This document shows, one piece after another, positions 1,847 to 21,836 of a stretch of DNA of 22,972 nucleotides. The stretch's first letter is position 1. Each line of letters begins with the position of its first letter. The position numbers and the translations under genes were made by a program. The stretch is from IMG/VR virus record IMGVR_UViG_3300044623_000600, positions 1 through 22,972 of that record. One strand, given 5' to 3'. This DNA comes from a virus. The notes under the pieces were generated by a model, which worked only from the letters and a program-made list of their open reading frames with translations, was not told the origin of the DNA and ran no database searches.

Positions 1847-1879
1847 TTTTTATTATAAATATCATATTTATAATAAAAA
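1847..1879. promoter_or_regulatory. 33-bp perfect palindrome holding two opposed late-type motifs
   Basis: Sixteen-base arms (1847-1862 and 1864-1879) are exact reverse complements around a single C at 1863. Each arm ends in the ATATTTAT element that precedes most virion genes here, one copy pointing left to the gene starting at 1836 and one pointing right. It may act as a divergent promoter or as a dyad binding site for a phage regulator. The repeat itself is certain; its function is inferred. Confidence 0.65.
1855..1862 (-). promoter_or_regulatory. Late-type promoter motif for the leftward unit
   Basis: Read on the minus strand this is ATATTTAT followed by AATAAAAA, with 18 bases between it and the ATG at 1836. 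The same element stands before seven other genes of this window. No other promoter-like sequence was seen inside the leftward unit, so it probably drives all four genes. Confidence 0.5.
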
Positions 1880-1894
1880 CACATTAAAATAAAT

Positions 1895-1928
1895 AAAGCT
1901 GGGGCAATGCTCCAGCTTTTTTGTTTTT
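1895..1928 (+). terminator. Rho-independent terminator hairpin, rightward
   Basis: The left arm at 1895-1905 (AAAGCTGGGGC) pairs with 1909-1919 (GCTCCAGCTTT), with one G-U pair and an AAT loop, and is followed by TTTGTTTTT. The T-tract is on the plus strand, so it ends rightward transcription. Yet the genes to its left all read leftwards, so no plus-strand gene in the window needs it. It sits just upstream of the late-type motif of the 1957 gene. Confidence 0.75.
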
Positions 1929-1932
1929 ATAG

Positions 1933-1940
1933 ATATTTAT
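1933..1940 (+). promoter_or_regulatory. Late-type promoter motif before the repeat fibre
   Basis: ATATTTAT lies 16 bases before the ATG at 1957 and directly after the terminator hairpin. It is the best candidate start of the rightward unit covering 1957-5738. Confidence 0.5.
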
Positions 1941-1956
1941 TGTAAAGATTTAAACT

Positions 1957-4893
1957 ATGAATAACTATTTAATATTAAGAAGTCAAAATAGCCCATATAA
2001 TGACGTTACAAAAAGTAGCGTATTAAGTTTTGCTGAAATGGATGAAAATCTCATCTTTTTAAAAGGACTCGCAATACATACTGCAACAACAAACAATGGA
2101 ATTGTAACACTAACAAAATTCAATGGAGAAGACATTGAATTCAGTACTGGTGCTGGTACACCGTTTTTTTTACAAAATTCACAAACAACAGATGCTGGTT
2201 CAGATAAAGATGCAGTAATACAAAGAAGAGGTAGTATATTTGTTGGTGATTATATCCCATCAGCTGGGACTGGTAGTTTTAGTTTTATGGGTAAACAACA
2301 ATTTGCTATTAGACATACTGGATATACTTATATTAATCAAGAATCATATCAAAATAGCCCTAATGAATCTGGAAGTTTAGGTTTCTATAGACAAAGAGGT
2401 ACACCTCAAGCATCATTAAATTTATTGAAAAATGATGTTTTGGGTACTATAAAATTTACAACTACTGCTTATGGTATTTCTGGTGGTTCACAATGGGATA
2501 ATTGGATAGGTGTATACGCTAATGAAAATCATGGTGGTGTTACATTTGGTAGTTCTGGTGGTACTAGAATGGATTTTTATTTAACACCAAATGGTACTAT
2601 TCCAGCAAAAAAGGCTTTAAGTATTATTGGTAGTGGTGATACTCAAATATTTGGTAATTTAACTGCTAGTACAGTAAGTGCTACAACATATTATAATTTA
2701 CCAATAAATACTGATATATTTACAACTGGTGGTACTTATTCAAACGGAACAACTACATTTACCAATAATACTGGTGGAACATTTAATGTGTCTGGTTATT
2801 TTAAAACATCTGATGACATTTATACTACTGGTATGACTTTTAACGCTAGTAATTATAATTTAACTATTAGTAGAAACGATAATACTAGTTTTAGTCAAAA
2901 TTTATCTATTTTAGCTAGTGATATGACTATTACTGGTGGTACATATAATGCTAATAATGGTGTGGCTACGTTTACCAACAATACTGGTGGTACATTTAAT
3001 GTAAGTGGGTTCTTAACTGGAATGACAGATACATTTGTAACTGGTGGTACTTATAGTTCTGGTACTGCTACGTTCACCAATAACTCTGGTGGTACATTTA
3101 ATGTAAGTGGGTTTACCAATGGTGGTAGTGGTCCAATATCAGTTATTAACACATCTTCTTTATTTTCAACTGGATTAGTAGATACTGGATATCAAGCATC
3201 TGGAGTTACTGATTCAAACTTCTTCGGAAACTATGCTGGATATCAAGCATCTGGAGTTTCATTGTCAAACTTTATGGGTTTAAGTGCTGGTACATTTGCA
3301 ACAAACGCTGAACAATCTAACTTCTTTGGTTTCCGTAGTGGTTATGGTGCAACTGATGCAAACTCATCTAATTTCTTGGGTAGTAGTGCTGGTTATGGTG
3401 CAACTAATGCTTCTCAATCAAATTTCTTTGGTGTAAACTCTGGTTTGTTTGCTAGTGGTGCTACTGTATCAAACTTCTTTGGTACTAATGCTGGTTATCA
3501 AGCTTATGATGCTGCTGGTTCAAACTTTATTGGTCCAAGTGCTGGTTTTCAAGCATCTGGTGCTAATAATTCAAACTTTATTGGTTATTTAGTTGGTTAT
3601 AAAGCAACTAATGCTATTCGAGCTAACTTCATTGGATTTAACACTGGTTATCAAGCAAGTGGTGCTAATAATTCTAACTTCTTTGGTACTACTGCTGGTG
3701 GTCAAGCTTATAACGCATCTAACTCTAACTTCTTGGGGCAAGGGGCTGGTTATCAAGCTAGTGGTGCTAATAATTCAAATTTCTTTGGTCAAGCAGCTGG
3801 TCAACAAGCATATAATGCTTATCAATCAAACTTTATTGGTTATAATTCTGGTTATCAAGCATCTGGTGCGTTAGCTTCAATTTTTATAGGTGGTAGTTCT
3901 GGTTATCAAGCATCTGGTGCTGGTGAATCAAATTTCTTTGGTTGGTATGCTGGTTATAAAGCATATAGTGCTGGTTTTTCAACATTTATTGGTAGTAGTG
4001 CTGGTAGGGAAGCTAATGGTGCTACTTTTGCTAATTTTATGGGTCGTGCTGCTGGTTTAGGGGCTACTGGTGCTACTAATTCAAACTTTATTGGTTATAA
4101 TTCTGGTTATCAAGCAACTGGTGCTAGTCAATCTAATTTCATGGGGTATAGTGCTGGTCAACAAGCAACTGATGCTAAATTTAGTAATTTCATTGGTTAT
4201 CAAGCTGGTAATGGTGCATCTAGTGCTTCTTTTTCTAATTTCATGGGTAGTGCTACTGGTTTTAGAGCAACTGGTGCTACTAATTCAAATTTATTTGGTT
4301 ATAATGTTGGTTATGCAACAATCACTAGTGATAGTATTGGTTCAAATAATATAATTATTGGTACAAATATAACTTTATCTGCTGGTACAATAGACAGTAT
4401 CAATATTGGTGGTGTGTTGTTTGGAACTGGAACTTATTCAATAACTGGTGGTAATGCATCATTAACTGTAGTTCCTGGTGGTAAAATAGGTATTGGTGTT
4501 ATAGCACCTACAGAAAGGTTACATGTTAGTGGAAACTTATTGGTTGATGGTAATTTAACATTTACTGGTCAATCTAGAAATCCTATTTATAGTGCTGGAA
4601 CAGTAACTGCAACACATATACCTAACTGGAACAACAGTAATATCCAAACTGTTATCTTATCAGCAGCAACTACAAGTATTAGTGGTGGTACAAACATACA
4701 AAATGGTGCTGTTTATACTATGATACTTAAACAAAATGCTAGTGGTTCTAGAGTAGTTAATTGGGGTAGTGAATACAAATGGCAATCTGGTATAGCACCA
4801 GTTTTATCATCTACAGCAAATGCGGTTGACATAATAACATTAATAAGTGATGGTACTAGTTTGTATGGTCTTATAGCAAAAGATTTTAGATAA
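1957..4893 (+). CDS. Large tail-fibre/adhesin with 21 tandem 17-residue repeats
   Basis: This 978-residue protein is modular. Residues 1-40 (LRSQNSPYNDVTKSSVLSF, then MDENLIFLKG) look like a virion-attachment N-terminus. Residues 70-232 form a globular beta-rich region. SATTYYNLP at 241-249 marks a junction. Residues 253-386 hold four beta-repeats of about 35 residues with TGGTY and GGTFNVSG. Residues 420-776 hold 21 exact-length repeats of the pattern SNF-x-G-xx-AG-xx-A-xx-A-xx. A capping region (INIGGVLFGTGTY), a GKIGIG...ERLHVSG segment and a C-terminal beta domain ending SLYGLIAKDFR follow. The repeat resembles the YadA-head type of left-handed beta-roll, though with 17 rather than 14 residues per turn. 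The protein is probably a trimeric host-binding fibre. The lectin-like gene follows through a TAATG stop/start overlap. The start has an A-rich leader and no Shine-Dalgarno. Confidence 0.85.
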   Translation: MNNYLILRSQNSPYNDVTKSSVLSFAEMDENLIFLKGLAIHTATTNNGIVTLTKFNGEDIEFSTGAGTPFFLQNSQTTDAGSDKDAVIQRRGSIFVGDYIPSAGTGSFSFMGKQQFAIRHTGYTYINQESYQNSPNESGSLGFYRQRGTPQASLNLLKNDVLGTIKFTTTAYGISGGSQWDNWIGVYANENHGGVTFGSSGGTRMDFYLTPNGTIPAKKALSIIGSGDTQIFGNLTASTVSATTYYNLPINTDIFTTGGTYSNGTTTFTNNTGGTFNVSGYFKTSDDIYTTGMTFNASNYNLTISRNDNTSFSQNLSILASDMTITGGTYNANNGVATFTNNTGGTFNVSGFLTGMTDTFVTGGTYSSGTATFTNNSGGTFNVSGFTNGGSGPISVINTSSLFSTGLVDTGYQASGVTDSNFFGNYAGYQASGVSLSNFMGLSAGTFATNAEQSNFFGFRSGYGATDANSSNFLGSSAGYGATNASQSNFFGVNSGLFASGATVSNFFGTNAGYQAYDAAGSNFIGPSAGFQASGANNSNFIGYLVGYKATNAIRANFIGFNTGYQASGANNSNFFGTTAGGQAYNASNSNFLGQGAGYQASGANNSNFFGQAAGQQAYNAYQSNFIGYNSGYQASGALASIFIGGSSGYQASGAGESNFFGWYAGYKAYSAGFSTFIGSSAGREANGATFANFMGRAAGLGATGATNSNFIGYNSGYQATGASQSNFMGYSAGQQATDAKFSNFIGYQAGNGASSASFSNFMGSATGFRATGATNSNLFGYNVGYATITSDSIGSNNIIIGTNITLSAGTIDSINIGGVLFGTGTYSITGGNASLTVVPGGKIGIGVIAPTERLHVSGNLLVDGNLTFTGQSRNPIYSAGTVTATHIPNWNNSNIQTVILSAATTSISGGTNIQNGAVYTMILKQNASGSRVVNWGSEYKWQSGIAPVLSSTANAVDIITLISDGTSLYGLIAKDFR
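2713..3114 (+). repeat. Four beta-repeats (TGGTY / GGTFNVSG type) in the fibre gene
   Basis: Residues 253-386 contain four units, each starting D-x-x-x-TGG/M-T-(Y/F). Three of them end GGTFNVSG and the second is divergent. The same unit type occurs in the fibre encoded at 15597-17045, and a 22-base stretch at 2931-2952 is identical to 16298-16319. Confidence 0.8.
3214..4284 (+). repeat. Tandem array, 21 units of 51 bp (17 residues)
   Basis: Twenty-one in-frame units, each beginning with a Ser/Ala-x-Phe codon triplet, fill this interval without a single length change. Partial units flank it (GYQASGVTD before, SNLFGYNVGY after). Many units share long DNA blocks around GGTTATCAAGCA and GGTGCTAATAATTC, but synonymous positions have drifted. 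Copy number could change by recombination. Confidence 0.9.
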
Positions 4894-5738: not shown

Positions 5739-5744
5739 AATTAG

Positions 5745-5752
5745 ATATTTAT
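5745..5752 (+). promoter_or_regulatory. Late-type motif 4 bases before an ATG
   Basis: ATATTTAT ends only 4 bases before the ATG at 5757. If it is a -10-like element, the transcript would start at or next to the start codon and be nearly leaderless. It lies 6 bases after the stop of the lectin-like gene. Confidence 0.4.
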
Positions 5753-5756
5753 TAGT

Positions 5757-6131
5757 ATGGAATTTCACATAAATAAAAAAGCAACGTTACCAAAACTTAA
5801 ATTGGAACTTATCAAAGATGGAAGAAATGATTTCAATAAATTTCACGATAAGATTCAAAACGCTAATATCACATTTACAATGACTGATATAGTTACTGGT
5901 GTCAAAAAAATAGCTTGTAAAATAGCTGGTATTGAAGAAGTACTACCTAAAAATAATTGTATTTGTGAGGAATATTATTTGGTTTATCAATTTACCACAA
6001 AAGAAACATCAGTGGCTGGAAGATATGCGGCATATTTTGAAATAGACTTTTTAGATGGTAGTGGTACTCTTATTGTGCCTATTCGTGAGGAATTATTTGT
6101 AAATGTGTTAGATGGTTCAATAAAAAAATAA
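5757..6131 (+). CDS. BppU-like baseplate/tail protein
   Basis: This 124-residue protein begins MEFHINKKATLPKLKLELIK and continues NANITFTMTDIVTGVKKI, with a closing IDFLDGSGTLIVPIREELFV stretch. The pattern of a short strand, a 'polarised change' segment and a final long strand is that of the BppU/baseplate-upper N-terminal Ig-like fold, which attaches receptor-binding proteins to the baseplate in other phages. It is short enough to be that domain alone. It follows the lectin gene by 18 bases and precedes the polymerase promoters, so it closes the left-hand fibre block. The assignment comes from recalled family patterns. The start is fixed by the lack of any other Met before residue 42. Confidence 0.6.
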   Translation: MEFHINKKATLPKLKLELIKDGRNDFNKFHDKIQNANITFTMTDIVTGVKKIACKIAGIEEVLPKNNCICEEYYLVYQFTTKETSVAGRYAAYFEIDFLDGSGTLIVPIREELFVNVLDGSIKK

Positions 6132-6138
6132 TATTTAC

Positions 6139-6169
6139 TTGACACTTTAAAAATAAAAATGTAAGTTTG
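6139..6169 (+). promoter_or_regulatory. Bacteroidota-type promoter P1 (TTG-N20-TAAGTTTG)
   Basis: TTG at 6139-6141 and TAAGTTTG at 6162-6169 are separated by exactly 20 bases and fit the TTG...TAnnTTTG housekeeping consensus of Bacteroidota. It is 82 bases from the polymerase ATG. Its -7 box is the left arm of the inverted repeat at 6162-6184. Confidence 0.65.
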
Positions 6170-6184: not shown

Positions 6185-6205
6185 AAAATTATTTTGACTT
6201 TTTCC

Positions 6206-6236
6206 TTGTTTTTATTTATTTTATTTAGTACCTTTG
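6206..6236 (+). promoter_or_regulatory. Bacteroidota-type promoter P2 (TTG-N20-TACCTTTG)
   Basis: TTG at 6206-6208 and TACCTTTG at 6229-6236 again have 20 bases between them, the same spacing as P1. The polymerase ATG is 15 bases further on, so the leader would be short. Two equal-spaced matches in 120 bases suggest host RNA polymerase reads this gene early. Confidence 0.7.
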
Positions 6237-6251
6237 TAAAAATATATTAAT

Positions 6252-9200
6252 ATGAGTAAATCTAAAACAAAGGTAAGTAACGAACAAATTGAATCGTTTT
6301 TACAAGGCTCAAACCCAGAAAAGTACATTGTAGCTGTTGAATCTAATTACAACGAACCAAAAGTAACACTGGTTATAAATGACCCAGAAAAGGGTAAATA
6401 TTTATATGATGATACATATAAACCATTTCTTTGGTTTAAAGAAGATGTAACATCAATGATTTATGGTGGTAAACGTCTTAAAATCATGGAAGCTTGTAAA
6501 GATTATGGTATTAAAATCACAAAACTTATTACTAGCAATGAAGAAGGTTATACTCCAGACAGAATGGATAGTGGATATAAATACATGGCTACATGTAAAC
6601 ACTCATACAATAATCTTTTAAAATTCTTTAAAGAAGGTGGTGTTGATGTATTTAGTGATAAAAACATTGACCCAGATGATGATAAATCACCAATGTATAG
6701 AAGTTTTTTCGTAATGTTTAGTCCTACTGAACAATATCTTATCCAAAGTGGTAAAAGATTGTTCAATGGAATGGATGATTACGATGATGTACATAGATTT
6801 CAATTTGACTTAGAGACTGAAGGATTATTTGCTAGTAAACATGCAATCTTTCAGATAGGTGTACGTGATAACAAAGGACTTGAAGGTGTGTTAGAGACGA
6901 TTGGTGCGACTCCAAGCGATAAACGAAACAGTGAGAGGGAAAACATCGAAAAGTTCTTTAAAATCATCGATGCAGTGCAACCAGATATTATCACTGGATA
7001 TAACTCTGAGAACTTTGACTGGCCTTTCTTATTTGAACGTGCTGAAAGACTTTCAATTCCAATTACTGAATTAGCGATTACACTTAACAGAATTTCTAAG
7101 ATTAGAAGAAAAGATGCATCGCTTAAACTAGGTGGTGAAACTGAGAAATATAAACAAACTCACATGTATGGTTATAATATCATGGATATTTCACATGCTG
7201 TACGTAGAGCAATGGCTATCAACTCTGAAATCAAATCTTGGGGTTTGAAATACATTACTCAATATTCTGAGATTGCAAAACCTAATCGTGTTTATGTTCC
7301 TGGTGATAAAATCAATACAACATGGGCTGATAAAGTTAATCAATACGCATTCAATGATACTGATGGTGATTGGTATATTATTACTGATAAGAAACCATTG
7401 AAAGATAATTATAAAGTAGTAAAAGGTGATTATATTGTTCAAAGATATCTTTGCGATGATTTATGGGAAACTGAACAAATTGATAATATCTTCAATCAAG
7501 CATCTTTCCTTATCGCAAAAATGTTACCTACAACATTCATGCGTAGTTCTACAATGGGTACTGCTGGTCAATGGAAACTAATCATGGCTGCATGGTCTTA
7601 CGAGAGAGGGTTAGCTATCCCATCTGGATTACCTAAAAGAGACTTTACTGGTGGTTTATCTCGTTTATTGGAAGTTGGTTATGCTAGAGGTGTTGTTAAG
7701 TTAGATTTTGCGGCACTTTATCCAAAGATTCAGTTAACTCACTTAATTTTCCCAGACTTAGATATTTCTGGTGTAATGGAAGGAATGTTAACATATGTTG
7801 TTGATACACGTGACAAATTTAAATTCTTGACTGGTATTGAGAAGAAAAAAGCTAAAAAACTTGAAGCTAAACTTAAAGAAAACAAAGATTTAACAGCAGA
7901 AGTGATTGTTTCAACCAAAAAAGAAATAGGTGAGTATAAAGCTTTGGCTAATTTATATGATAAAAAACAGTTACCTCTTAAAATTTTAGCCAATTCATGG
8001 TTTGGTTCATATGGTGCACCTTATATCTTTAACTGGGGTGATACTGATTCAGCTGAAGAAACAACATGTCGTGGTCGTCAATACTTACGTCTAATGGTTC
8101 GTCACTTTACTGAAAAACATGGTTTTAGAGCGTTGGTAGGTGATACAGATGGTTTTAACTTTGCATTCCCAGATAATATTGATGAAATCAAATACGTAGC
8201 AAAAGGTTCACATTGGAAAACTACTGATGATGGTGGAAAAGAATTAACTGGGTTAGATGCAGTATTGGCTGAATTCAATGAGAATTATATGGAAGGTCGT
8301 ATGGGATTGGATATCGATGATATTTGTAACTCAACAATCAACTTTGCTCGTAAAAATTATGCTAACGATATTGGTGGTAAAATTAAATTGGTTGGTAACT
8401 CTGTAAAATCTAAAAAAATGTCAGTTTATATTGAAGAATTTTTAGGTAAAGGAATTAGAATGTTATTGGATGGAGATGGTTATTCATTTGTTAATCATTA
8501 TTATGAATATGTAGATAAGATTTACAATTATCAAATTCCGCTTGTTAAGATGGCTTCAAAAGCTAAAATAAAGATAACCATTGCTGAATATAAGAAAAAG
8601 GCTACAAAGACAAATATAGCTGGTAATCCGTTACCTAAACAAGCTCATATGGAATTGGTTATGAGAGAAGGTTTAGATGTAAATTTAGGTGATACATTGT
8701 TTTATATAAATATTGGTGCTTCAAAATCAACTGGTGATTTAAAAACTATTGATAAAAACAAGATGAGTAAAAAAGATACATATGCTTATTTTGAAGCAAA
8801 TGGCTGTTATCCTACAGTTGATAAAGTTGTTGAGTTAAATTGTAAATTGATTGACCCAGAAACTGTTGAAAAAGACTTTGAGAATATCAAAGAATTAGAA
8901 GTACTTAAAAAAGCACTTATTGCAATGGAAGAAAATGGTGAAATGGATACTATGAATGAGGCATATGTTGGTATGACTGATAGAATGAAAGAGATTCAAA
9001 ATAGTTTATATACAGATGAATATAATGTTGCTCGTTATTTGGATGCATTCAATAAAAAGGTTAAACCACTACTTGTTTGTTTCAATGAAGACGTTAGGTC
9101 TAAAATAGTTTTAGATATTGTAAAAACAAAAGATAAAATTACAAAAAAAACAACTGAAAAGTTAAAAGAAAGAACTATCTTCACAAAAGGTGAATGTGAA

Positions 9201-10133
9201 TTAGTTTCTGGTATTCCTTTCAAAGAAAGTGACCAAGATACTTACGCTGACCTTATGAGAATGGAAGATAAAGAAATTAAATTCTGGGATAAAGTTAATA
9301 AGATTCCAAACAACATGGAAGTTGAAGAATGGGACGAAATTAGAGCTGATTATCATGAAAGACTTAGAATTGCTAGGTTAGAAGGTATTCAACATGAAAA
9401 GGATACACTAGAAGATATATTCAAACACTTAGAAATTAAAGAATTGAATGCGATTAAAACTACTGGTGAATTACAACAAGATGTTTTTATTATTTGTGGT
9501 ATTAGCAACGATGGTGATGGAATGCTTATCTCTAGAAAATGGAATGAACCCTTGTGTCATGTTTCAGACATATTTAAATATGAAAAAGATGCTATTGAAC
9601 GTGATAAATATTATCAGATGGCCAAAAACACGTCTGATGATAGATATGAGCAATGGTTAGATTATGTAACTGAATGTACTGTTATGACTGGTCAGACATA
9701 TAATATATTTTCTGAGATTGAAGAAGGATTGACTGAACATGAAACAGAAGTTGTTATTGAGACAATAGATAATGTTACTGAAAAATTAATCAAAAAAGCT
9801 GAATCGATAATTATCGTAAAACCAACAGAAGTTAAAAAGAAACGAGTTTATTCTGAAAGTGAAGAAGATGAGGATGTAATCGAAGAAGATGAAAATGGTA
9901 ATCTGGTTAGAAGTGAAGAAAATATAAATTTAGATGATGAATATGATGACACATTCGGTGAAATGCCAGATGATTATGAATCTAGGTCACCAGAAGAAAC
10001 TGATGAGTATTGGAAAAACCAAAGAGCTACAATGAATGAAGCTATAGAGTCAATAAATACTTACAATAAAAACGTTAAAAAAATAGAAGAAGAAGAGAAA
10101 AAAGATAAACCAGAAGATGAATGGGGATTCTAA
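6252..10133 (+). CDS. Family-B DNA polymerase with long C-terminal extension
   Basis: This 1293-residue protein is the replicative polymerase, related to T4 gp43. The 3'-5' exonuclease motifs are Exo I FDLETEG (D186, E188), Exo II GYNSENFD (D256) and Exo III Y399-x3-D403. The polymerase motifs are A, LDFAALYP (D485, steric-gate Y490); B, K577-x3-NSWFG (N581-G585); and C, GDTDG (D631, D633). Spacing between motifs is close to RB69 polymerase. Two oddities stand out: the motif B Tyr is Phe (F584), and about 660 residues follow motif C where RB69 has about 280. The extra part ends in an acidic tail (about 1199-1293) finishing PEDEWGF, which might be a sliding-clamp peptide. Two tandem host-type promoters precede it and a strong terminator follows. 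All catalytic acidic residues are present, so it should be active and proofreading. Confidence 0.95.
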   Translation: MSKSKTKVSNEQIESFLQGSNPEKYIVAVESNYNEPKVTLVINDPEKGKYLYDDTYKPFLWFKEDVTSMIYGGKRLKIMEACKDYGIKITKLITSNEEGYTPDRMDSGYKYMATCKHSYNNLLKFFKEGGVDVFSDKNIDPDDDKSPMYRSFFVMFSPTEQYLIQSGKRLFNGMDDYDDVHRFQFDLETEGLFASKHAIFQIGVRDNKGLEGVLETIGATPSDKRNSERENIEKFFKIIDAVQPDIITGYNSENFDWPFLFERAERLSIPITELAITLNRISKIRRKDASLKLGGETEKYKQTHMYGYNIMDISHAVRRAMAINSEIKSWGLKYITQYSEIAKPNRVYVPGDKINTTWADKVNQYAFNDTDGDWYIITDKKPLKDNYKVVKGDYIVQRYLCDDLWETEQIDNIFNQASFLIAKMLPTTFMRSSTMGTAGQWKLIMAAWSYERGLAIPSGLPKRDFTGGLSRLLEVGYARGVVKLDFAALYPKIQLTHLIFPDLDISGVMEGMLTYVVDTRDKFKFLTGIEKKKAKKLEAKLKENKDLTAEVIVSTKKEIGEYKALANLYDKKQLPLKILANSWFGSYGAPYIFNWGDTDSAEETTCRGRQYLRLMVRHFTEKHGFRALVGDTDGFNFAFPDNIDEIKYVAKGSHWKTTDDGGKELTGLDAVLAEFNENYMEGRMGLDIDDICNSTINFARKNYANDIGGKIKLVGNSVKSKKMSVYIEEFLGKGIRMLLDGDGYSFVNHYYEYVDKIYNYQIPLVKMASKAKIKITIAEYKKKATKTNIAGNPLPKQAHMELVMREGLDVNLGDTLFYINIGASKSTGDLKTIDKNKMSKKDTYAYFEANGCYPTVDKVVELNCKLIDPETVEKDFENIKELEVLKKALIAMEENGEMDTMNEAYVGMTDRMKEIQNSLYTDEYNVARYLDAFNKKVKPLLVCFNEDVRSKIVLDIVKTKDKITKKTTEKLKERTIFTKGECELVSGIPFKESDQDTYADLMRMEDKEIKFWDKVNKIPNNMEVEEWDEIRADYHERLRIARLEGIQHEKDTLEDIFKHLEIKELNAIKTTGELQQDVFIICGISNDGDGMLISRKWNEPLCHVSDIFKYEKDAIERDKYYQMAKNTSDDRYEQWLDYVTECTVMTGQTYNIFSEIEEGLTEHETEVVIETIDNVTEKLIKKAESIIIVKPTEVKKKRVYSESEEDEDVIEEDENGNLVRSEENINLDDEYDDTFGEMPDDYESRSPEETDEYWKNQRATMNEAIESINTYNKNVKKIEEEEKKDKPEDEWGF

Positions 10134-10140: not shown

Positions 10141-10171
10141 AAAAGGAGCTATTAAGCTCCTTTTCTTTTTT
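10141..10171. terminator. Bidirectional terminator between convergent genes
   Basis: AAAAGGAGCT (10141-10150) and AGCTCCTTTT (10155-10164) form a perfect 10-bp stem with an ATTA loop. CTTTTTT follows on the plus strand, and the minus strand reads TTTTTATTTG after the stem. It lies between the polymerase stop and the stop of the convergent neck gene, so it can serve both. Confidence 0.9.
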
Positions 10172-11322: not shown

Positions 11323-11344
11323 TTTTCTTATAAATATAAGAAAA
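11323..11344. repeat. Perfect inverted repeat around the neck-gene late motif
   Basis: TTTTCTTATA (11323-11332) and TATAAGAAAA (11335-11344) are exact reverse complements around AA. The late-type motif lies inside. Without a T-run on the minus strand it is a poor terminator; a protein-binding dyad is more likely. Confidence 0.5.
11330..11337 (-). promoter_or_regulatory. Late-type promoter motif before the neck gene
   Basis: The minus strand reads ATATTTAT, 14 bases before the ATG at 11315, in the 36-base gap after the glutaredoxin stop. It would allow late expression of the neck protein separate from the early-type helicase-glutaredoxin unit. Confidence 0.5.
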
Positions 11345-13477: not shown

Positions 13478-13508
13478 TAAATATAATAATTTTTTTAATA
13501 AAAATCAA
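13478..13508 (-). promoter_or_regulatory. Probable helicase promoter (TTG-N20-TATATTTA)
   Basis: On the minus strand TTG (13508-13506) is followed after exactly 20 bases by TATATTTA (13485-13478), one base short of the TAnnTTTG box and with the same spacing as both polymerase promoters. If correct, the TTG at 13508 is a -33 element and not a start codon. The same box could be read as an imperfect late motif (ATATTTAC). Confidence 0.45.
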
Positions 13509-13537
13509 GTGTTATGGGATTAATATCTAAAAGATAA

Positions 13538-13545
13538 ATATTTAT
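13538..13545 (+). promoter_or_regulatory. Late-type promoter motif for the right-hand virion block
   Basis: ATATTTAT lies 10 bases before the ATG at 13556, inside the 10-base palindrome TAAATATTTA (13536-13545). It would drive the genes at 13556-15563, which have no other such motif. Confidence 0.5.
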
Positions 13546-13555: not shown

Positions 13556-14077
13556 ATGGATAATAAGAAGATTACACCGATAACACGTATCAACAAGTTT
13601 TTTTCCGAAGAGGATTTTGGATTGGAGATTTCTATGGGTCGTGAAGCACTAGAAGGTGATGGAAATTTCACAGTTATTTTGTATCGTGTTGATAGAGAGA
13701 ATAGTGCATCAGATAATTTATATGGTGAAGCTCCAAAGGATGGTATAAAATATTTTTCCCCAGTTGAATTGAAAGTAGTCCCTATTTTAGAAGAAGCTGA
13801 AAATAAAACTTATAATGGAAATGGTTCATTAAGATATTTACAAGATGGTAATTTCACATTTGGTATTTATGATTCTCAATTGAGTGAGCTAGATGTTCAA
13901 ATTAGTTATGGTGACTATATAGGTTACCCAGTTACTGAAACTGAAATTAGATATTTCAGTGTTGTTAACGATGGAGTTAAAAATTATGATAATAAACACA
14001 CAATAATGGGTTACAAAGGTGCATTTAGAACAATAAAATGTGCATCAATCGATGGTAGCGAGTTTAGAGGTGTATAA
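13556..14077 (+). CDS. Putative virion structural protein, family not recognised
   Basis: This 173-residue soluble protein has no signal peptide or membrane segment. It starts MDNKKITPITRINKFFSEEDF and is rich in beta-strand patterns (NFTVILYRVD; YFSPVELKVVPILE; LDVQISYGDYIGYPVTETEIRYFSVV), with an acidic composition. The strand-rich core with a GDYIGY turn resembles small neck or tail-completion proteins of myoviruses, but I do not recognise a family. It starts divergently from the helicase and 10 bases after a late-type motif. It is followed after 20 bases by the 352-residue virion protein, so both are probably made together late in infection. Confidence 0.5.
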   Translation: MDNKKITPITRINKFFSEEDFGLEISMGREALEGDGNFTVILYRVDRENSASDNLYGEAPKDGIKYFSPVELKVVPILEEAENKTYNGNGSLRYLQDGNFTFGIYDSQLSELDVQISYGDYIGYPVTETEIRYFSVVNDGVKNYDNKHTIMGYKGAFRTIKCASIDGSEFRGV

Positions 14078-15156: not shown

Positions 15157-15161
15157 ACAAT

Positions 15162-15572: not shown

Positions 15573-15580
15573 ATATTTAT
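15573..15580 (+). promoter_or_regulatory. Late-type promoter motif before the first MANR fibre
   Basis: ATATTTAT, within the dyad TATATTTATATA, ends 16 bases before the ATG at 15597. An A-rich leader without Shine-Dalgarno follows. Confidence 0.5.
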
Positions 15581-15596
15581 ATAAAAACAAAAACAA

Positions 15597-17045
15597 ATGG
15601 CAAATAGAAGTACTAGATTTATTCTAAAAAATAATGCAAATTCAACAGCACCTTTTTCTGGGTCTACATTACTAGCTGGTGAACCAATAGTTAACACAGC
15701 TGCTGGTATAATGATGTTCTCTGGTGTTACAACTGGAAGTAATGATTGGGTTCCAGCTGGTCCAGCTGGTAACGCTAATTTCTTTGAAGTTGGGTCAAAC
15801 CTTTATAATTTAAAAATTAGAAATAAAATTACAGAATATAGTGGTATAACAAATTTATCTGGTAAATTCTTATCTGGTACAACTAACGGTTTCGTATTGG
15901 CTGATATCACATCAATTGCTGGTGTTGATACTTATGTAACTGGATTTACATACAATGATAACGTATTAACTATTAAACAAAATGTTGGTCAATCTGATTT
16001 AACAGCATTGATAAACACAATGACTGGTTTAACTGTTAATGGTACATTATCAGCAACAACTGGTAATATAGGTACAATCAACACTACGACATTAAATGCA
16101 ACTGGTGGTAGTATTACAACAGCTGCTAGTAACCCAAATGATATTGTGAATTATAGTACATTGACTGGGTATTCAATATCAAATGATATTTATGTTACTG
16201 GTGGTACTATTTCTTATACTGGTCCTAATGGTTCAATCGTTTTAGGTAGAAAAAACGCATCAAATGTAACTTTAACTGGTTTAACTGATGTATATACTAC
16301 TGGTGGTACATATAATGCTGGTACACTTACATTAAATAATAATAGTAATGGTTCATTTAATGTAACTGGTTTAACATCAACAGATACATTTGTAACTGGT
16401 TTTACTTATTCACCAACAACAAATACTTTTACAATTAAACAAAATCAAGGTCAAAGTGATTTACCAGTTCAGTTTAATACTGTATCTGGTTTAACTGTTA
16501 GTAATTTAACATCTGGTAGAGTTGTTTATGTAGGTACTAGTGGTTTATTAACTGATGAGTCTGGATTTACATATGATGATGGAACAAATACATTTAGTGT
16601 TCCTTCAGATGGTGCTGTTAGTGTTGGTACTGGTGGTTTATCAGTTGCTGGTGATGCAGTTATTCAAGGTTCTTTGACAGTGTTTGGTCCTTCTGTTTCA
16701 GCGTTTACTTCTCAATTATATGTTGAAGACCCAAATATTACACTTAACTATAATCCAACTGGAAATACAACAGCAACATCTATTGGTGCTGGTTGGACAC
16801 TTCAAGATGGTAACGGGTTAAATGGTGGAAATGTAAACTTAGATATTAGAGCGTTAAATACACTTACTGGTTTAACTGGTACTCAAATTCCAAATATTAC
16901 TGAATATACATCAGCAACTGGTTATGGAAATAGAGGTTGGGTAACTCAATTAAATGATATCGTAATTAGAAGTACAAATATTGCAACACCAAATGGCGTT
17001 AGAGTATTGACAGAATTTGATACGTTAGATGGGGGTACATATTAG
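15597..17045 (+). CDS. Tail fibre with MANR anchor and TGGTY repeats
   Basis: This 482-residue protein starts MANRSTRFILKNN and then LLAGEPIVNTAAGIM, matching the N-terminus of the next fibre (17206) at MANR, G-x-L-xx-GE and NTA; this is probably the baseplate-attachment domain. The shaft repeats D-x-(F/Y)-x-TGFTY/TGGTY with intervening LTIKQNxGQSDL strands. Near the C-terminus is QLYVEDPNITLNYNP and a globular segment GAGWTLQDGNGLNGGNVNLDIRALN. It ends DTLDGGTY, followed by tandem stops TAG TAA. Composition is Thr/Gly/Asn-rich and free of Cys, as in trimeric fibres. A terminator hairpin follows at 17108, so this is probably the end of a transcription unit that starts at 15573. Confidence 0.8.
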   Translation: MANRSTRFILKNNANSTAPFSGSTLLAGEPIVNTAAGIMMFSGVTTGSNDWVPAGPAGNANFFEVGSNLYNLKIRNKITEYSGITNLSGKFLSGTTNGFVLADITSIAGVDTYVTGFTYNDNVLTIKQNVGQSDLTALINTMTGLTVNGTLSATTGNIGTINTTTLNATGGSITTAASNPNDIVNYSTLTGYSISNDIYVTGGTISYTGPNGSIVLGRKNASNVTLTGLTDVYTTGGTYNAGTLTLNNNSNGSFNVTGLTSTDTFVTGFTYSPTTNTFTIKQNQGQSDLPVQFNTVSGLTVSNLTSGRVVYVGTSGLLTDESGFTYDDGTNTFSVPSDGAVSVGTGGLSVAGDAVIQGSLTVFGPSVSAFTSQLYVEDPNITLNYNPTGNTTATSIGAGWTLQDGNGLNGGNVNLDIRALNTLTGLTGTQIPNITEYTSATGYGNRGWVTQLNDIVIRSTNIATPNGVRVLTEFDTLDGGTY

Positions 17046-17107: not shown

Positions 17108-17143
17108 AATATGCACAATTTACGGATTGTGCATATTTATTTT
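17108..17143 (+). terminator. Terminator with UACG-type tetraloop, overlapping a late motif
   Basis: A 12-bp perfect stem (17108-17119 with 17126-17137) encloses TTACGG, which can fold as a U-G pair closing a UACG tetraloop of the very stable UNCG class. TTATTTTA follows. The gene before it ends at 17045. The right arm runs straight into the late-type motif at 17133-17140. Confidence 0.75.
17133..17140 (+). promoter_or_regulatory. Late-type motif inside the terminator, with 65-nt leader
   Basis: ATATTTAT overlaps the terminator's right arm and tail and is 65 bases from the ATG at 17206, the longest leader of the set. The leader holds a dyad GGTTA-CA-TAACC (17149-17160) and a near-repeat of TTTATAGAG followed by GTT or ATT (17141-17152 and 17175-17186). 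Confidence 0.4.
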
Positions 17144-17205: not shown

Positions 17206-19626
17206 ATGGCAAATAGAAAGAATACGTTTTTGATTAAACGTTCGAATGTTGTTGGCAAAGTTCCAGCAGCTGGTGATTTACAACTAGGAGAATTAGCTTT
17301 AAACACAGCTGACAATATACTTTACGCATCTGGAACCACAGCTGGTTCAATTCTACCAATTGGTTGGGATAGAGTTGCTAGAACTGGTGATACAATGACT
17401 GGTAATTTATTTACTCCATATCTATCTGCTACAACAGTATCCGCTACAACATACCTTAACCTACCTTCTTTTGCTGACGATTATTTACCATTATCTGGTG
17501 GTACAGTTTATGGTCCAACTATTTATACTGGTGGTTTAACTGCTGATACATTGAATGTTACTGGTTTGACGCAAACTAGTGGTGTAACATCTACTGGTGG
17601 TATTATATTTCCACAAAAAAACGTAACTGGTTCTTACACAGCAACAACTGCTGATTATTTTTTAACTGTTACTGGTGGTACTTTGGATATAACTCTGATG
17701 TCCGCAGTTGGTGTTCAAGGTAAGTTATTGGTAATTAAGAATGAAAATGATGGTATTGTGAATGTAATTTCTCAAGTTGGTGAAACTATTGATGATAGAA
17801 CAGATGTTTTATTAACAAAAGGTAATTCAGTACAGTTGATTAGTGATGGTGTTAATTGGGTTATAATAGGTTATAATATTGGTTCAACACAAGCTAACAC
17901 TGGTGTTATTGAATTTAGTGGGTTATCAAAGGTTACTAATTCTACTTTTGGTGTTGCACCATTAAAAGGGTTTATTGTTGATGATGTAACAAATCCAACA
18001 ATACCATTTTTAACATATGTAGAATATACTGGTGGAACACACACAGATAATTATGTTAATACTGCTTTTGAAACATTTGTATATATTACAAGTGGTGGGA
18101 CTATAGAACAACAAGCAACACCTTTAACTCCAACACAAAGAAGACAAAATATTTTCTTGGGTAAACTTGGTCACCCAGATAAAACAGTAATTAATCTGGT
18201 TTTTTCACAACCAGATTATATTTTAACACCTTTGGGTCAATTAAGAGATATGTTTATACCTATAAACTTAATCAACGGTGGTGTTTATCCTTCCCCAAAT
18301 ACTGATTTGACAATAAATAATAGTGCTGGTTACATTTATGGATTAGGTATTAATTTTTCTGCTGATGAACTTAGTCCTAACTCATTCTATGTTAGTGGTG
18401 GTTCACCAACTACATTCCAATATCGTACACAAACTGGTGGTACAATTACAAACACAACTTTGATTGACCCTTTGAACTATGATTTAAACGGTGTTATAAC
18501 ACCGTTGGCTGGTACAAAAGCAACAAACCAAAGAGTGTATTTACTTCAAAATGGTTCAATTAGAGTTATGTATGGACAACATGTTTATTCTAACTTTGCT
18601 GAAGCTGTTCAAAATATACAAATAGAAGCATTTACACCGTTTCCTAACTTTATAAACAACGCTGTATTAATTTCGATTATCACTCTATTATCATCAGCAA
18701 CTGATTTAACTGATACAACCAAAGCACAATTCTTTTTCACTTCAAAATTTGGTGAAACTATTGGGTCTGCTGGTGGTATATCAACAACTACACTTCAACA
18801 AGCGTACAACAATTCAACAAACCCAGAAATTGTTATAAATGCAACACTTGATGGGTTAACAATAAAGAATGGTACTGGAAACGCTGACAACATAACTAGA
18901 TTATTAGAAGGTCAGACAGCAGCAAATGGTGTTACATCATTTATAAGAGCTGATGGTTATATTTCTGGAACAACATTTCAAACTAACGGTTTCAATGCAA
19001 ATAGTAATGGTATAACAGCAACAACTGTTTCTGCAACAACATATTATAATCTACCTTTAGATATTAGAACAACTGGAACAACAGTTTTAAACGGTTCTGT
19101 TGCATTTAATAGAAATGATAGTATGTCAGCTTACACTGTTAGTTTTAGTGGTGTTAATATCAATGTTATTAGTGATGATATAAATAAAAGATTAACATTT
19201 AGTGCGTCAACTGGTGGTGGTTCTTCTTTACCAACATTAAATCAAGCTCAAATATTTATTGGGGATACATCAAATGTAGCTCAAGCTAGAAATGTATCTG
19301 GTGATATTGGTTTAGATTTTAGTGGTTTAACAACTATACAACCAAATGTTGTAACATATAACAAGATGCAAACAGTATCACAAAATGCTTTATTAGGTTC
19401 ACCTAATGTATCTGGAGGTACAGTCGAAGAAATACCGATGATTGATGCTTATATAACAGCTGGTACTGCATATACACTTTTAACAACATCTACCAATTGG
19501 GATATTGACGGAATTTATACTGGTTCAACAATATCTGGAACTTACCAAGGTCAATCTTGTTATAATGGTAACTATTGGTTTACTGCGGTTGACGATAATA
19601 TTTGGATTAGATTAATTAGAGGATAA
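17206..19626 (+). CDS. Large MANR-anchored tail fibre
   Basis: This 806-residue protein opens MANRKNTFLIKRSN, then VPAAGDLQLGELALNTADNILY (19-40). This is the 'G-x-L-x-LGE-x-A-x-NTA-x-x-x-LY' signature shared by many phage fibre N-termini and by the Mtd-type N-terminal domain. SATTYLNLP (79-87) and SATTYYNLP (609-617) mark module junctions. A beta-prism-like segment, TGSYTATTADYFLTVTGGT, follows the first. A central globular region (about 300-540; LGKLGHPDKTVINLVFSQPD; QRVYLLQNGSIRVMYGQHVY) could be an adhesin or peptidase-like domain of unknown type. Then comes a helix-rich LQQAYNNSTNPEIVINATLDGLTIKNG segment. The end is SGTYQGQSCYNGNYWFTAVDDNIWIRLIRG. The next gene starts 2 bases after the stop, so the LRR adhesin is probably its partner. 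Confidence 0.8.
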   Translation: MANRKNTFLIKRSNVVGKVPAAGDLQLGELALNTADNILYASGTTAGSILPIGWDRVARTGDTMTGNLFTPYLSATTVSATTYLNLPSFADDYLPLSGGTVYGPTIYTGGLTADTLNVTGLTQTSGVTSTGGIIFPQKNVTGSYTATTADYFLTVTGGTLDITLMSAVGVQGKLLVIKNENDGIVNVISQVGETIDDRTDVLLTKGNSVQLISDGVNWVIIGYNIGSTQANTGVIEFSGLSKVTNSTFGVAPLKGFIVDDVTNPTIPFLTYVEYTGGTHTDNYVNTAFETFVYITSGGTIEQQATPLTPTQRRQNIFLGKLGHPDKTVINLVFSQPDYILTPLGQLRDMFIPINLINGGVYPSPNTDLTINNSAGYIYGLGINFSADELSPNSFYVSGGSPTTFQYRTQTGGTITNTTLIDPLNYDLNGVITPLAGTKATNQRVYLLQNGSIRVMYGQHVYSNFAEAVQNIQIEAFTPFPNFINNAVLISIITLLSSATDLTDTTKAQFFFTSKFGETIGSAGGISTTTLQQAYNNSTNPEIVINATLDGLTIKNGTGNADNITRLLEGQTAANGVTSFIRADGYISGTTFQTNGFNANSNGITATTVSATTYYNLPLDIRTTGTTVLNGSVAFNRNDSMSAYTVSFSGVNINVISDDINKRLTFSASTGGGSSLPTLNQAQIFIGDTSNVAQARNVSGDIGLDFSGLTTIQPNVVTYNKMQTVSQNALLGSPNVSGGTVEEIPMIDAYITAGTAYTLLTTSTNWDIDGIYTGSTISGTYQGQSCYNGNYWFTAVDDNIWIRLIRG

Positions 19627-19628
19627 AT

Positions 19629-21617
19629 ATGGGAACATTATTAGTACATAAAAATAGAGTTATTACAAATGCATCAATAATAACTGATGTAACACCAGAA
19701 ACGTATATTAGACCAGTTAATTGGTTAACAATGCCAGATATCACAAGTGGTACTAGTGTTGTTTATTTACTTATGGGTTTAACTGAAAAATCAGATAACT
19801 GGTTAGCAGTTAATTGTGCTGGTCACTATACAGTTGATTGGGGTGATGGGTCGATTATTAATTATTCAGCAAACACAATCGCATCTTATCAAGCTTATTG
19901 GAGTGGTGCTAGTCCATCTACACTAACAAGTGATTTATATAGGCAAACACTTATAAAAATAACACCACAATCTGGTCAAACACTAACAAAGGTTGATTTA
20001 TCTGCTTTACACGTAAGTGCTAAAACAAGTTCATATCAACGTAATTATTTTGATATTAAATTATCAACACCAGATTTAACTTCGTTTACATTTGTTACAT
20101 CACCATTAATGCAACAATTTGAATGGATTGGAACAAATAAAATGACAACATTCCAATCTTTTTTCAATGGTTTTAGTTCTCTTAAAAAGATAATTAGTAT
20201 AGATGTATCTAATGCAAATACTACATTAGGTGTTTATCAATTATTTGGTAGTTGTAATTCATTGGTTGATATTCCATCATTAACGATACCTAGTGGTGCA
20301 ACTAACTTAACTTATATGTTTAATGGATGTAGTAAGATAAAAACTATACCAATGATGGATACAAGTAAAGTTACAAATATGTCTAGTATGTTTTCTTCAA
20401 CATCTTCTTTGGTTACAATACCTCAATTGGATACATCTAAAGTTACTGATATGAGTGGTATGTTTGGTTCTAGTGGTATAGTAACACTTCCTTTATTAGA
20501 TACATCTAAAGTAACTACTATGGCTAGTATGTTTAATGGTACTACAAGGTTACAAACAATACCATCATTTAATACACCAGTGTTGACTAATATTGGTACT
20601 ATGTTTCAATCATCTAAAATTGTGTCAGTACCATTTTTTGATGTGAGTAAAGTTACATCATCAGCTCAATATCCATTCTATTTCTGTTCAAAATTAACAT
20701 ATGTTGCTCCTTTGAATACATCTGGTATTACCAATTTTACTTATTGGTTTTCTCAATGTACTTCATTGGTTGAAGCACCATTGATAGATACATCTAATGG
20801 TACTGATATGTCTAGTATGTTTGCATCGTCATCATCACTTAGAACAATACCTTTGTTAAATACATCTAAAGTAATTAATATGACTAGTATGTTTCAAAGT
20901 TGTCCTTCATTGGTTACGATACCTTTAATCGATACTAGTAAAGTAACTAACACAAGTGCTATGTTTAATGGTTGTACTAGTTTAACATCTGTACCTCAAT
21001 TAAATTTATCAGCTGTAACCACGACTATTAGTATGTTTAATGGTTGCAGTTCATTGATTACACTACCATATTTGAATACTGATAAGTGTTTAACATTTAA
21101 TAATATGTTCTCTAATTGTATCAAATTAACTGGTATTACTGGATTAAACACTATTAGTGCAACAACTCTTAGTCAATTATTTTATCAAAACGTTATGATG
21201 GTATCTTCACCAACATTTAATTCACCAGCAGTTACTGTTGCTGATTATATGTTTGCTAATTGTAATAGATTAAGAAGTGTTGGGTTATTTAATACTAGTA
21301 AAATAACCAACGTAACTAGTATGTTTCAAGGTTGTAATAGATTAGAAGAAATACCAACATTTAATCTATCAGCAGCAACTTCTGGTTTAATTAGTACTAC
21401 CACTGCTTTAGGTTCATTTTTACCTACTGGTTATAGATATGCTATGTCTTTTTATGGTAATAATTTATCTTACTCAGCATTATTAACAATATTAAATAAT
21501 TTAGGTACCGCTGTTGGTGCTCAAAATATAAATGTTGCGTTTAATCCTGGTTCTACTAGTTTAACTGCGAGTGATAGATTGATAGCGACAAATAAAGGTT
21601 GGACAATAACTTATTAA
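19629..21617 (+). CDS. BspA-like (DUF285) leucine-rich-repeat adhesin
   Basis: This 662-residue protein has an N-terminal part with a PKD-like motif (YTVDWGDGS, 67-75). From about residue 200 it has some 15-17 repeats of about 24 residues of the form (S/Y)MF-xx-C-xx-L-xx-IP-x-(L/F)-(D/N)TSKVT-xM. This is the DUF285/BspA leucine-rich repeat typical of Bacteroidota and Mycoplasma surface proteins. A C-terminal cap follows (YSALLTILNNLG, then SLTASDRLIATNKGWTITY). No signal peptide, membrane anchor or sorting tail is present, so it is made in the cytoplasm as expected of a virion part. It begins 2 bases after the 806-residue fibre stop. GAGG, 6 bases upstream of the ATG, is the only Shine-Dalgarno-like site among these starts. 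It probably binds a host-surface ligand or host LRR partner. Confidence 0.85.
   Translation: MGTLLVHKNRVITNASIITDVTPETYIRPVNWLTMPDITSGTSVVYLLMGLTEKSDNWLAVNCAGHYTVDWGDGSIINYSANTIASYQAYWSGASPSTLTSDLYRQTLIKITPQSGQTLTKVDLSALHVSAKTSSYQRNYFDIKLSTPDLTSFTFVTSPLMQQFEWIGTNKMTTFQSFFNGFSSLKKIISIDVSNANTTLGVYQLFGSCNSLVDIPSLTIPSGATNLTYMFNGCSKIKTIPMMDTSKVTNMSSMFSSTSSLVTIPQLDTSKVTDMSGMFGSSGIVTLPLLDTSKVTTMASMFNGTTRLQTIPSFNTPVLTNIGTMFQSSKIVSVPFFDVSKVTSSAQYPFYFCSKLTYVAPLNTSGITNFTYWFSQCTSLVEAPLIDTSNGTDMSSMFASSSSLRTIPLLNTSKVINMTSMFQSCPSLVTIPLIDTSKVTNTSAMFNGCTSLTSVPQLNLSAVTTTISMFNGCSSLITLPYLNTDKCLTFNNMFSNCIKLTGITGLNTISATTLSQLFYQNVMMVSSPTFNSPAVTVADYMFANCNRLRSVGLFNTSKITNVTSMFQGCNRLEEIPTFNLSAATSGLISTTTALGSFLPTGYRYAMSFYGNNLSYSALLTILNNLGTAVGAQNINVAFNPGSTSLTASDRLIATNKGWTITY
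20313..21388 (+). repeat. BspA/DUF285 repeat array, about 15 units of 72 bp
   Basis: In-frame units of about 72 bases carry the conserved codons for SMF, TIP and DTSKVT. Most units are 24 residues long; a few vary by one residue (for example after GMFGSS and SVPFFDVSKVT). Two more degenerate units precede the array at about 20151-20312. Confidence 0.8.
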
Positions 21618-21635
21618 TAAAAACAAAAAAAAATT

Positions 21636-21836
21636 ATGGATAAAAGTGGATTTTATAAAGAAACATCTGAAGGTTGGTATTTTGCACCAAATTGTGTATC
21701 ATCACCAACTTATGAATTATTAAAAGAATTAAAGGATACATATAGTTACCCAATTGATGGTTGGTTTTGGTCAGAATCTGAACCAATAAATTATGTTGAT
21801 ATATTTATAAATAACGAAAATAATGATTTAATATAA
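21636..21836 (+). CDS. Small conserved fibre-cluster protein, unknown function
   Basis: This 66-residue acidic protein reads MDKSGFYKETSEGWYFAPN, then YELLKELKDTYSYPIDGWFWSESEP. The pattern of a short opening strand, a helix with K/D/T, 'YP-x-DGW-x-W' and an acidic end is one I associate with small proteins encoded within phage fibre operons, where it may be a fibre-assembly factor or a small tip subunit. Function is not established. It sits 18 bases after the LRR adhesin and 1 base before the next fibre, so it is surely cotranscribed. A late-type motif for the next gene is embedded in its last codons. It is not a shadow: no larger gene covers this interval on either strand. Confidence 0.6.
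   Translation: MDKSGFYKETSEGWYFAPNCVSSPTYELLKELKDTYSYPIDGWFWSESEPINYVDIFINNENNDLI
21801..21808 (+). promoter_or_regulatory. Late-type motif inside the small gene's end
   Basis: ATATTTAT, within the palindrome TATTTATAAATA (21802-21813), ends 29 bases before the ATG at 21838. Being in coding sequence it is a weaker case than the intergenic copies. Confidence 0.35.

Follow-up and report, generated by a model that had tools for sequence, protein, structure and literature searches.

Box copies and putative promoters in the analyzed window

The window, which is the whole 22,972-nucleotide stretch of virus record IMGVR_UViG_3300044623_000600 that was analyzed, contains 19 exact copies of the 8-mer ATATTTAT (the box) on its two strands, compared with a mean of 6.56 and a maximum of 13 in 100 shuffles. 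Nine copies, again counting both strands, fall within just 637 noncoding bases, a total that depends on the gene list used for the window; 500 shuffles averaged 0.71 copies and never exceeded 3. The pattern is real, and the original prediction had put the noncoding sequence correctly at well under 1 kb and the chance expectation at under one copy. The eight copies that it listed are all present, with distances to the following ATG (18, 16, 4, 14, 10, 16, 65 and 29 bases) that match the coordinates. Seven of them lie in noncoding sequence and the eighth inside the end of an ORF at 21636–21836; six are followed by an A-run, as had been stated, which is absent at 5745 and 17133.

We scored the copies with a position matrix trained on related phages, using a training set that also held the window's own upstream regions. 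The top-scoring site (23.2) is on the minus strand at 1855–1862, 18 bases from the gene at 1195–1836 (minus strand). Back to back with it and one base apart lies a second, plus-strand box (1864–1871; score 22.3) that was absent from the earlier list and is separated from the gene starting at 1957 by an intrinsic-terminator-like hairpin of 11 pairs (1895–1919, plus strand) located between the divergent genes. The latter gene (1957–4893), tail-fibre-like by its match to phrog_9017 (E 5.1e-10), is preceded by another box at 1933–1940 (plus strand, gap 16, score 19.0). Further plus-strand copies precede the genes at 5757–6131 (box 5745–5752, gap 4, score 16.2, of the near-leaderless class ATATTTATTAGTATG), 13556–14077 (13538–13545, gap 10, score 18.1), 15597–17045 (15573–15580, gap 16, score 19.1) and 21838–22650 (21801–21808, gap 29, score 14.8), and a minus-strand copy at 11330–11337 (gap 14, score 20.7) precedes a neck or head-completion-like gene (10170–11315, minus strand). 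The copy at 17133–17140 (plus strand, gap 65, score 10.5), ahead of a tail-fibre-like gene at 17206–19626, is the doubtful one because it lacks the A-run and is preceded by a hairpin-like repeat. Among the 11 unlisted copies, two are noncoding, namely 1864–1871 and a minus-strand copy at 13534–13541 (score 11.8), while the eight coding and one partly coding copies score from −5.0 to 8.0. An Rfam search of the window gave no match.

The two replication units had been described as starting from sites like TTG-N20-TAnnTTTG, which we take to be the promoter of the Bacteroidota primary sigma factor (host-type promoter). This is exact for the polymerase gene (PolB, 6252–10133), where TTG-N20-TACCTTTG at 6206–6236 (plus strand) ends 15 bases before the ATG at 6252 and has the spacer of 20 that is typical of this class in relatives. 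The SNF2-like helicase gene, as read by eye, has only a near-consensus TTG-N20-TATATTTA at 13478–13508 on the minus strand (TTG at 13508–13506, TATATTTA at 13485–13478). The TTG listed as the helicase start codon would then more likely be its −33 element.

An extended element conserved in related phages

Across 946 upstream regions in relatives, no other 8-mer is as biased towards the coding orientation as ATATTTAT (318 sense versus 115 antisense), and the counts in four long records were 20/6, 61/19, 38/12 and 37/7. Fifty kb of the T4 late region, taken as a control, proved too short for a k-mer ranking. The 8-mer that was originally taken as the element holds as its core, yet the full element is longer: the consensus of 322 nonredundant sites (out of 774) reads as a W-rich tract, about 12 bases, ATATTTAT, WWNW and AAA. 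The tract is located 17 to 13 bases ahead of the box, with a G+C content of 2–4% at −15, and persists without antisense-box sites (299 left) and without T5 runs (187 left). The G+C content ahead of the box also follows a rhythm with a period near 10.5 bases (0.035; ten control 8-mers gave 0.007–0.024).

The distance from the box to the ATG ranges from 2 to more than 90 bases, with 31 of the 322 sites at 4–5, four at 6–9 and 177 at 12–18; genes were called from ATG starts as the longest open frame, and therefore some gaps may be wrong. The peaks at 4 and 13–17 are the same as those of the host-type promoters in these phages (15 of 180 host-type boxes at gap 4, with a further peak at 13–17). None of ten control 8-mers shows both peaks. 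Two controls cluster at one distance, TTTATATA at 12–18 (29/73) and TATAATAA at 6–9 (31/95), and either can overlap the box plus the A-run that follows it; at gap 4–5, AAATAATA has 6 of 69 sites and AATTTATT 3 of 30. Since the box is often no more than 20 bases from the ATG, it could be imagined as an RNA-level element for translation start, mRNA processing or stability instead of a promoter. We regard this as very improbable, given the wide range of gaps, their mirroring of host-type promoter gaps, the upstream tract as part of the element, and the Shine-Dalgarno-like sequence found between the box and the ATG in several of the listed regions of the related phage Mel-JY01.

Conservation was assessed at the neck gene, with 75 of 80 neck loci taken in; of 54 distinct stretches upstream of its orthologues, 53 retain the box. 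Together with the shuffle and antisense controls, this rules out chance in AT-rich DNA, an origin that an all-A/T box would naturally bring to mind and that we consider next to impossible.

Genes preceded by the box

Enrichment before structural genes was found genome-wide in Flavobacterium phage immuto, where the box precedes 20 of 27 units in the virion block compared with 8 of 67 others (p = 9e-9). For the unit counts in immuto and Mel-JY01, we counted either ATATTTAT or CTATTTATA as the box and delimited the virion blocks ourselves from the annotation. In a hand-compiled tally of relatives, 22 of 30 virion genes and 3 of 8 replication genes have the box (p = 0.09); this count excludes PhoH, short fragments of thymidylate synthase, genes whose role is unclear and those with an upstream noncoding stretch of less than 20 bases. 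Across four relatives, the exact box precedes none of four capsid genes and none of four portal genes, while it is present before genes for DnaB helicase (2/2), recA (1/2) and PhoH (4/4). The box is thus enriched before virion genes, as originally proposed, but these exceptions rule it out as an exclusive mark of them. The proposed promoter role is supported by its genome-wide occurrence in relatives, coding orientation, promoter-like distances and virion enrichment, although not in the form of a simple virion mark.

Separation from host-type promoters

Units with both the box and a host-type promoter are rarer than expected in four records (1/39, 3/202, 5/171 and 1/83, versus 2.4, 18.4, 13.8 and 4.0 expected). 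A TTG at the host-type spacing is also scarce, with 16 of 322 box sites having one at spacer 20 (and 11 at spacer 19), in contrast to 114 of 180 host-type sites at spacer 20. These numbers bear on the alternative that the box is read by the host primary sigma with a phage co-activator replacing the −33 TTG, an appropriation of sigma like that of T4 middle transcription. Such a mechanism would fit the resemblance of the box to the host-type −7 box (TATATTTG; TATATTTAG in immuto), the equal gaps to the ATG in both promoter classes, and the TTG counts at spacers 17–20 (7, 15, 11 and 16 in the 322 sites), which are slightly above those of most neighbouring spacers. The scarcity of TTG at spacer 20, the largely exclusive classes and the availability of a conserved phage sigma-like protein argue against it, and we judge it unlikely.

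A candidate phage sigma factor

A sigma-like protein of 242 residues has full-length matches in 27 of 37 records. Of 16 records compared with PF04542, 13 gave a match to this protein, seven of them above the cut-off, and its relatives in immuto and Mel-JY01 gave none; sigma-family matches of the 242-residue protein and these relatives are weak and all under curated cut-offs, including that of TIGR02937. Judged by their titles, the 50 structural matches listed represent sigma factors or complexes of RNA polymerase, the best among them being sigmaE with Z 8.7 over residues 5–113, a modest value for a helical protein. The underlying structure model is weak (pLDDT 64, pTM 0.39), and Foldseek with this model gave many unrelated rows and no E-value under 0.001. 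PDB sequence searches produced no significant match, the best in one search being a SigA chain at E 0.054. Sequence and fold give moderate support for sigma-70 superfamily region 2. Helices are predicted in the C-terminal part at 205–216 and 220–239, and this part may be region 4, although alignments spanning residues 17–241 have an rmsd above 12.

Both immuto (gp118) and Mel-JY01 encode relatives of this protein and have the box. RM378 has a weaker relative and a related box TTATTTAA: TATTTAA occurs in 32 of 84 regions, where shuffles average 3.0. Which protein reads that box is ambiguous because a second one, annotated as a sigma factor and unrelated in sequence to the 242-residue family, is also present. 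LR756508 encodes a clear relative (E 2e-45 to that of immuto), and the 150 kb read of its 484 kb show no enrichment of the box (ATATTTAT one sense and one antisense; TATTTAT 5/3). No RNA polymerase beta-prime match was found in 16 records, using a control that was found in 14 of 14 genomes.

Another phage sigma could read the box instead, such as an RpoD-like protein of larger size (about 280 residues). Strong region 2 matches of this type are present in 10 of 16 records, including three (G004, G008 and G013) that have the box and no match to the 242-residue protein. It is missing, however, from six of the 16 that have both the box and the 242-residue protein (G003, G005, G009, G010, G011 and G015), although any of the records may be a fragment, and a single-sequence search of 1235 open frames in immuto, Mel-JY01, RM378 and the part of LR756508 that was read found none. 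We find this reading improbable, and we assign a similarly low chance to an alternative sigma factor of the host. The latter would suit the apparent adaptation of all exact-box phages to Bacteroidota-like hosts, whereas the many virion units served by the box argue against it, as does RM378, in which an altered box is accompanied by a relative of the phage protein that has diverged. Mel-JY01, labelled a Microcystis phage, had seemed to prove that the box tracks the phage rather than the host. It contains 17 TTG-N20-TAnnTTTG spacings of exactly 20, making its host label doubtful, so this phage does not serve as an independent host test and the argument is withdrawn.

Proposed model and relation to known systems

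We favor, with reasonable though not high confidence, the explanation that ATATTTAT forms the core of a promoter specific to these phages, which host RNA polymerase would recognize by means of the 242-residue protein. Its users would be a large clade of T4-related phages that probably infect Bacteroidota, and it may act late in infection. Transcription would probably begin at one of the third to fifth bases downstream of the box, resulting in leaders of roughly 9–16 bases, or near-leaderless messages where the ATG comes after four bases. In this scheme the host core enzyme most likely carries the 242-residue protein (sigma region 2 followed by the helical C-terminal part), which would replace the host sigma responsible for TTG-N20-TAnnTTTG. 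A more specific version, which we put forward tentatively and hold at somewhat less than even, is that a whole clade of T4-related Bacteroidota phages has a late system other than that of gp55. Its distinct phage sigma would contain both domains needed for reading a promoter, the promoter would be bipartite, combining the W tract with ATATTTAT, and an ATG four bases after the box would provide a near-leaderless option. Among the matches listed from the open-licence literature, none dealt with late promoters in Bacteroidota phages; the new part would be the promoter element, with its connection to one phage sigma, which could be used for annotating transcription units in abundant aquatic phages. 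Immuto on Flavobacterium sp. LMO8 provides a cultured system for the sigma.

Compared with the Bacteroidota primary-sigma promoter, the box occurs in the same phages, but its sites end in AT instead of G and mostly precede other genes. ECF-type sigma factors (sigmaE, SigW, CnrH) are among the best structural neighbours of the 242-residue protein, which differs in its sub-threshold family matches, weak for TIGR02937, and a putative region 4. Group 2 jumbo phages, as far as their description was available to us (PMC7824862), have a family B polymerase, a gp23-type capsid and no RNA polymerase of their own, and some infect Bacteroidota. Phage sigma factors are already known in these related phages, in minimal and RpoD-like versions proposed to recruit the host polymerase; the polymerase, capsid and sigma traits are shared with the phages studied here, while the portion of the description seen includes no promoter element.

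The T4 late promoter (TATAAATA; sigma gp55, co-activator gp33, sliding clamp gp45) likewise has a short A/T-only box upstream of virion genes, no host −35 element and a phage-encoded sigma, for which we have a sigma-like candidate. The original prediction saw the box as close to the reverse complement of the T4 sequence. Comparing TATTTATA (within ATATTTATA) with TATAAATA, both read on the same strand and in register, shows two central differences. Because the T4 box nearly equals its own reverse complement, calling the sequence reversed and calling it a two-base variant amount to one description; a true difference in orientation is ruled out. In the upstream regions of one relative (G001), TATAAATA occurs in 18 and TATTTATA in 44, and the box here is ATATTTAT(A) rather than the T4 box. 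No phrog_223 clamp was found in 16 records, in a search whose control was uninformative. The 242-residue protein is longer than gp55, and their link in sequence is weak: three members match the gp55 family phrog_234 collinearly at E 0.013–0.087, hhalign gave a probability of 12 (E 0.0025, 49 columns), and phmmer with T4 gp55 itself gave no match. T4 late promoters have no conservation at −35, according to the part seen of a review (PMC2988020), unlike the box, with its W-rich tract at −17 to −13. The two systems would illustrate a possible joint divergence of a T4-type late box and the factor that reads it.

Distribution of the box in the window and its relatives

The 22,972-base virus record encodes a family B DNA polymerase, an SNF2-like helicase, a glutaredoxin, a neck-like protein and tail-fibre-like proteins. 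Positions 19629-21617, inside the cluster of tail-fibre-like genes, code for PARCEL-type (Liste_lipo_26) surface-protein repeats, and 215-793 (-), near the window's start, encodes a DnaJ-like domain protein (27.1 bits versus a Pfam cut-off of 27.8).

The A/T-only 8-mer ATATTTAT (the box) occurs nine times, on both strands, in the window's 637 noncoding bases, compared with 0.71 in 500 shuffles (maximum 3). The eight copies of the original prediction and their gaps to the start codons are all correct when checked on the window sequence, and 11 further copies are present. A matrix learnt from relatives, with the window's own upstream regions within the training set, gives 10.5 for the listed site at 17133 and 14.8-23.2 for the other seven. 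Of the copies not listed, the two in noncoding sequence reach 22.3 and 11.8, and the nine that are coding or partly coding range from -5.0 to 8.0. Two back-to-back boxes, 1 base apart, lie with an adjoining terminator-like hairpin between divergent genes at 1855-1919.

Relatives in IMG/VR were collected for the polymerase (121 stretches, 80 loci kept) and the neck protein (218 stretches, 80 loci kept). The original prediction depended on enrichment of the box, which is indeed seen in the relatives: among 946 distinct upstream regions from the window and loci L001-L160, ATATTTAT is the top-ranked 8-mer by sense-minus-antisense score (318 versus 115). In four fully read related records, sense and antisense counts are 20/6 (G015), 61/19 (G001), 38/12 (G002) and 37/7 (G005). 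The box leads the ranking in G015 and G005; in G001 (rank 2) and G002 (rank 7) the words above it are host-type words and one A-rich word. ATATTTATNNNAAAA is present in all 16 records searched, with a lower backward-read control in every one. Back-to-back pairs with exactly 14 bases between the boxes recur at L162:8972 and 13 further loci, giving 14 distinct sequences of which some are nearly identical, and this arrangement is seemingly a conserved candidate bidirectional promoter.

Anatomy and distance to the start codon

From 774 box instances we kept 322 after dropping those with flanks at least 70% alike. With the first base of the box numbered 0, A occupies positions 12, 13 and 14 in 88, 81 and 75% of sites, about 90% have A or T at positions 8-9, and G+C is only 3-8% at positions -16 to -14. 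This upstream W-rich tract persists without antisense-box sites (299 left, 2% G+C at -15) and without T5 runs (187 left, 4%), and mean G+C at -17 to -13 is 0.109 for the box versus 0.196-0.327 for ten other AT-rich 8-mers.

Gaps to the ATG in the 322 sites fall at 4-5 in 31, 6-9 in four and 12-18 in 177, the gap-4 class reading ATATTTATwaGTATG. None of the ten control 8-mers has both peaks; two of them, which can overlap the box, show a single peak each, shifted or shared. The Bacteroidota host-type class TTG-N20-TAnnTTTG, a known promoter type, occurs in the same phages with the same gap geometry (of 180 nonredundant TAnnTTTG boxes, 114 have TTG at a spacer of exactly 20; 15 stand at gap 4, and gaps peak at 13-17). 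Of the indirect evidence for ATATTTAT as a promoter, this is the strongest. The common geometry would place transcription starts roughly three to five bases past the box, so that gap 4 would yield a near-leaderless message. Units carrying both elements number 1 of 39 in G015 (expected 2.4), 3 of 202 in G001 (18.4), 5 of 171 in G002 (13.8) and 1 of 83 in G005 (4.0). Judged from sequence, the box is very likely a promoter.

Genes preceded by the box

For the neck-gene orthologues, we compared 60-base upstream stretches from 75 of 80 loci, with identical ones merged. ATATTTAT stands at gap 13-18 in 53 of 54 distinct stretches with varying flanks, and the remaining one has a box with one mismatch. 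In four relatives, with gene classes assigned by similarity to proteins of the Flavobacterium phage immuto, the box precedes the terminase, prohead protease and the gene preceding the capsid gene (4/4 each), head completion (3/3), sheath, tube and baseplate assembly (2/2 each) and endolysin (1/1).

The box had been proposed as a mark of virion genes. Its enrichment in the virion blocks of immuto (20/27 versus 8/67 elsewhere, p = 9e-9) and phage Mel-JY01 (9/20 versus 10/80, p = 0.0025), with block limits set by us, agrees with this, but in the four relatives the box is absent before capsid (0/4) and portal (0/4) genes and present before PhoH (4/4), DnaB helicase (2/2) and recA (1/2). A tally made by hand in relatives, restricted to genes whose upstream noncoding stretch is 20 bases or longer, gives 22/30 virion versus 3/8 replication genes (p = 0.09). 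That box-driven expression is late we only infer.

The box in other phages

In immuto, ATATTTA is the top 7-mer (38 sense versus 3 antisense), ATATTTAT is second among 8-mers (19 versus 1 in 219), and the variant CTATTTATA is also present. Sense TAnnTTTG was found in 0 of 94 immuto regions (NC_055915; L286-L287); a second class, TTG, about 20 bases and TATATTTAG[GA], recurs instead at 17 of the 20 TATTTAG sites listed, mostly before small genes. In Mel-JY01 the box is the top 8-mer (17 versus 1 in 233). This phage (PP395634, L291-L294), labelled as infecting Microcystis elabens, has 17 TTG-N20-TAnnTTTG spacings of exactly 20; these Bacteroidota-type sites make the host label doubtful, and it may be wrong. 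A related box in RM378, TTATTTAA, often has GAAAA after it; of 84 regions there, 32 carry TATTTAA in sense and 19 in antisense orientation (shuffles, 3.0). In the part of LR756508 that was read, 150 of 484 kb, the box is not enriched, with the genetic code assumed.

A candidate reader of the box

A phage-encoded sigma-like protein of 242 residues is likely to read the box. Its match to sigma region 2 is seen in 13 of the 16 records and passes the Pfam cut-off in seven; searched alone, the nearest relative's copy falls under that cut-off, and no Pfam sigma family matches the immuto and Mel-JY01 relatives. Weak NCBIfam sigma matches were obtained for these three proteins and none for the RM378 relative. 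A full-length profile matches in 27 of 37 records, and the other 10 may be fragments. Its predicted structure is only modestly reliable (pLDDT 64). After structural re-comparison of Foldseek candidates, the 50 matches listed are all sigma factors or RNA polymerase complexes by title, mostly aligned over residues 14-113 and some over 17-241 with poor rmsd. The sequence link to gp55, the T4 late sigma, is weak.

Ten of the 16 records, including all three that lack the 242-residue protein, encode a larger sigma (about 280 residues), which as a query had no match in immuto, Mel-JY01, RM378 or the part of LR756508 read. RM378 itself has two sigma candidates, the annotated p144 (L297:28329-28928, -) and p020, which has no annotation but is related to the sigma-like family (L295:17032-17826, +); p144 has no sequence match to p020 or the 242-residue protein family. 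A beta-prime RNA polymerase subunit was not found in the 16 records.

Comparison with known late promoters

The T4 late promoter is described, in the relevant part of PMC2988020, as having no conservation at -35 and a consensus nearly constant across T4-like phages. The TATTTATA of the phages studied here differs from TATAAATA of the T4 late box at two central positions. The search outlined in PMC3037559 was run with the T4 box, which the present box would escape. T4-type late promoters are discussed for pf16 in PMC5587285, where RM378 is put on an isolated branch and the portion concerned gives no RM378 promoter. The corresponding passage of PMC5780444 attributes to the host sigma a late motif of cyanophage Ma-LMM01 that ends in TATTMT. 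Jumbo phages with the same gene set have phage sigma factors, both minimal and RpoD-like, according to the section on them in PMC7824862, and a phage sigma here is therefore expected rather than new.
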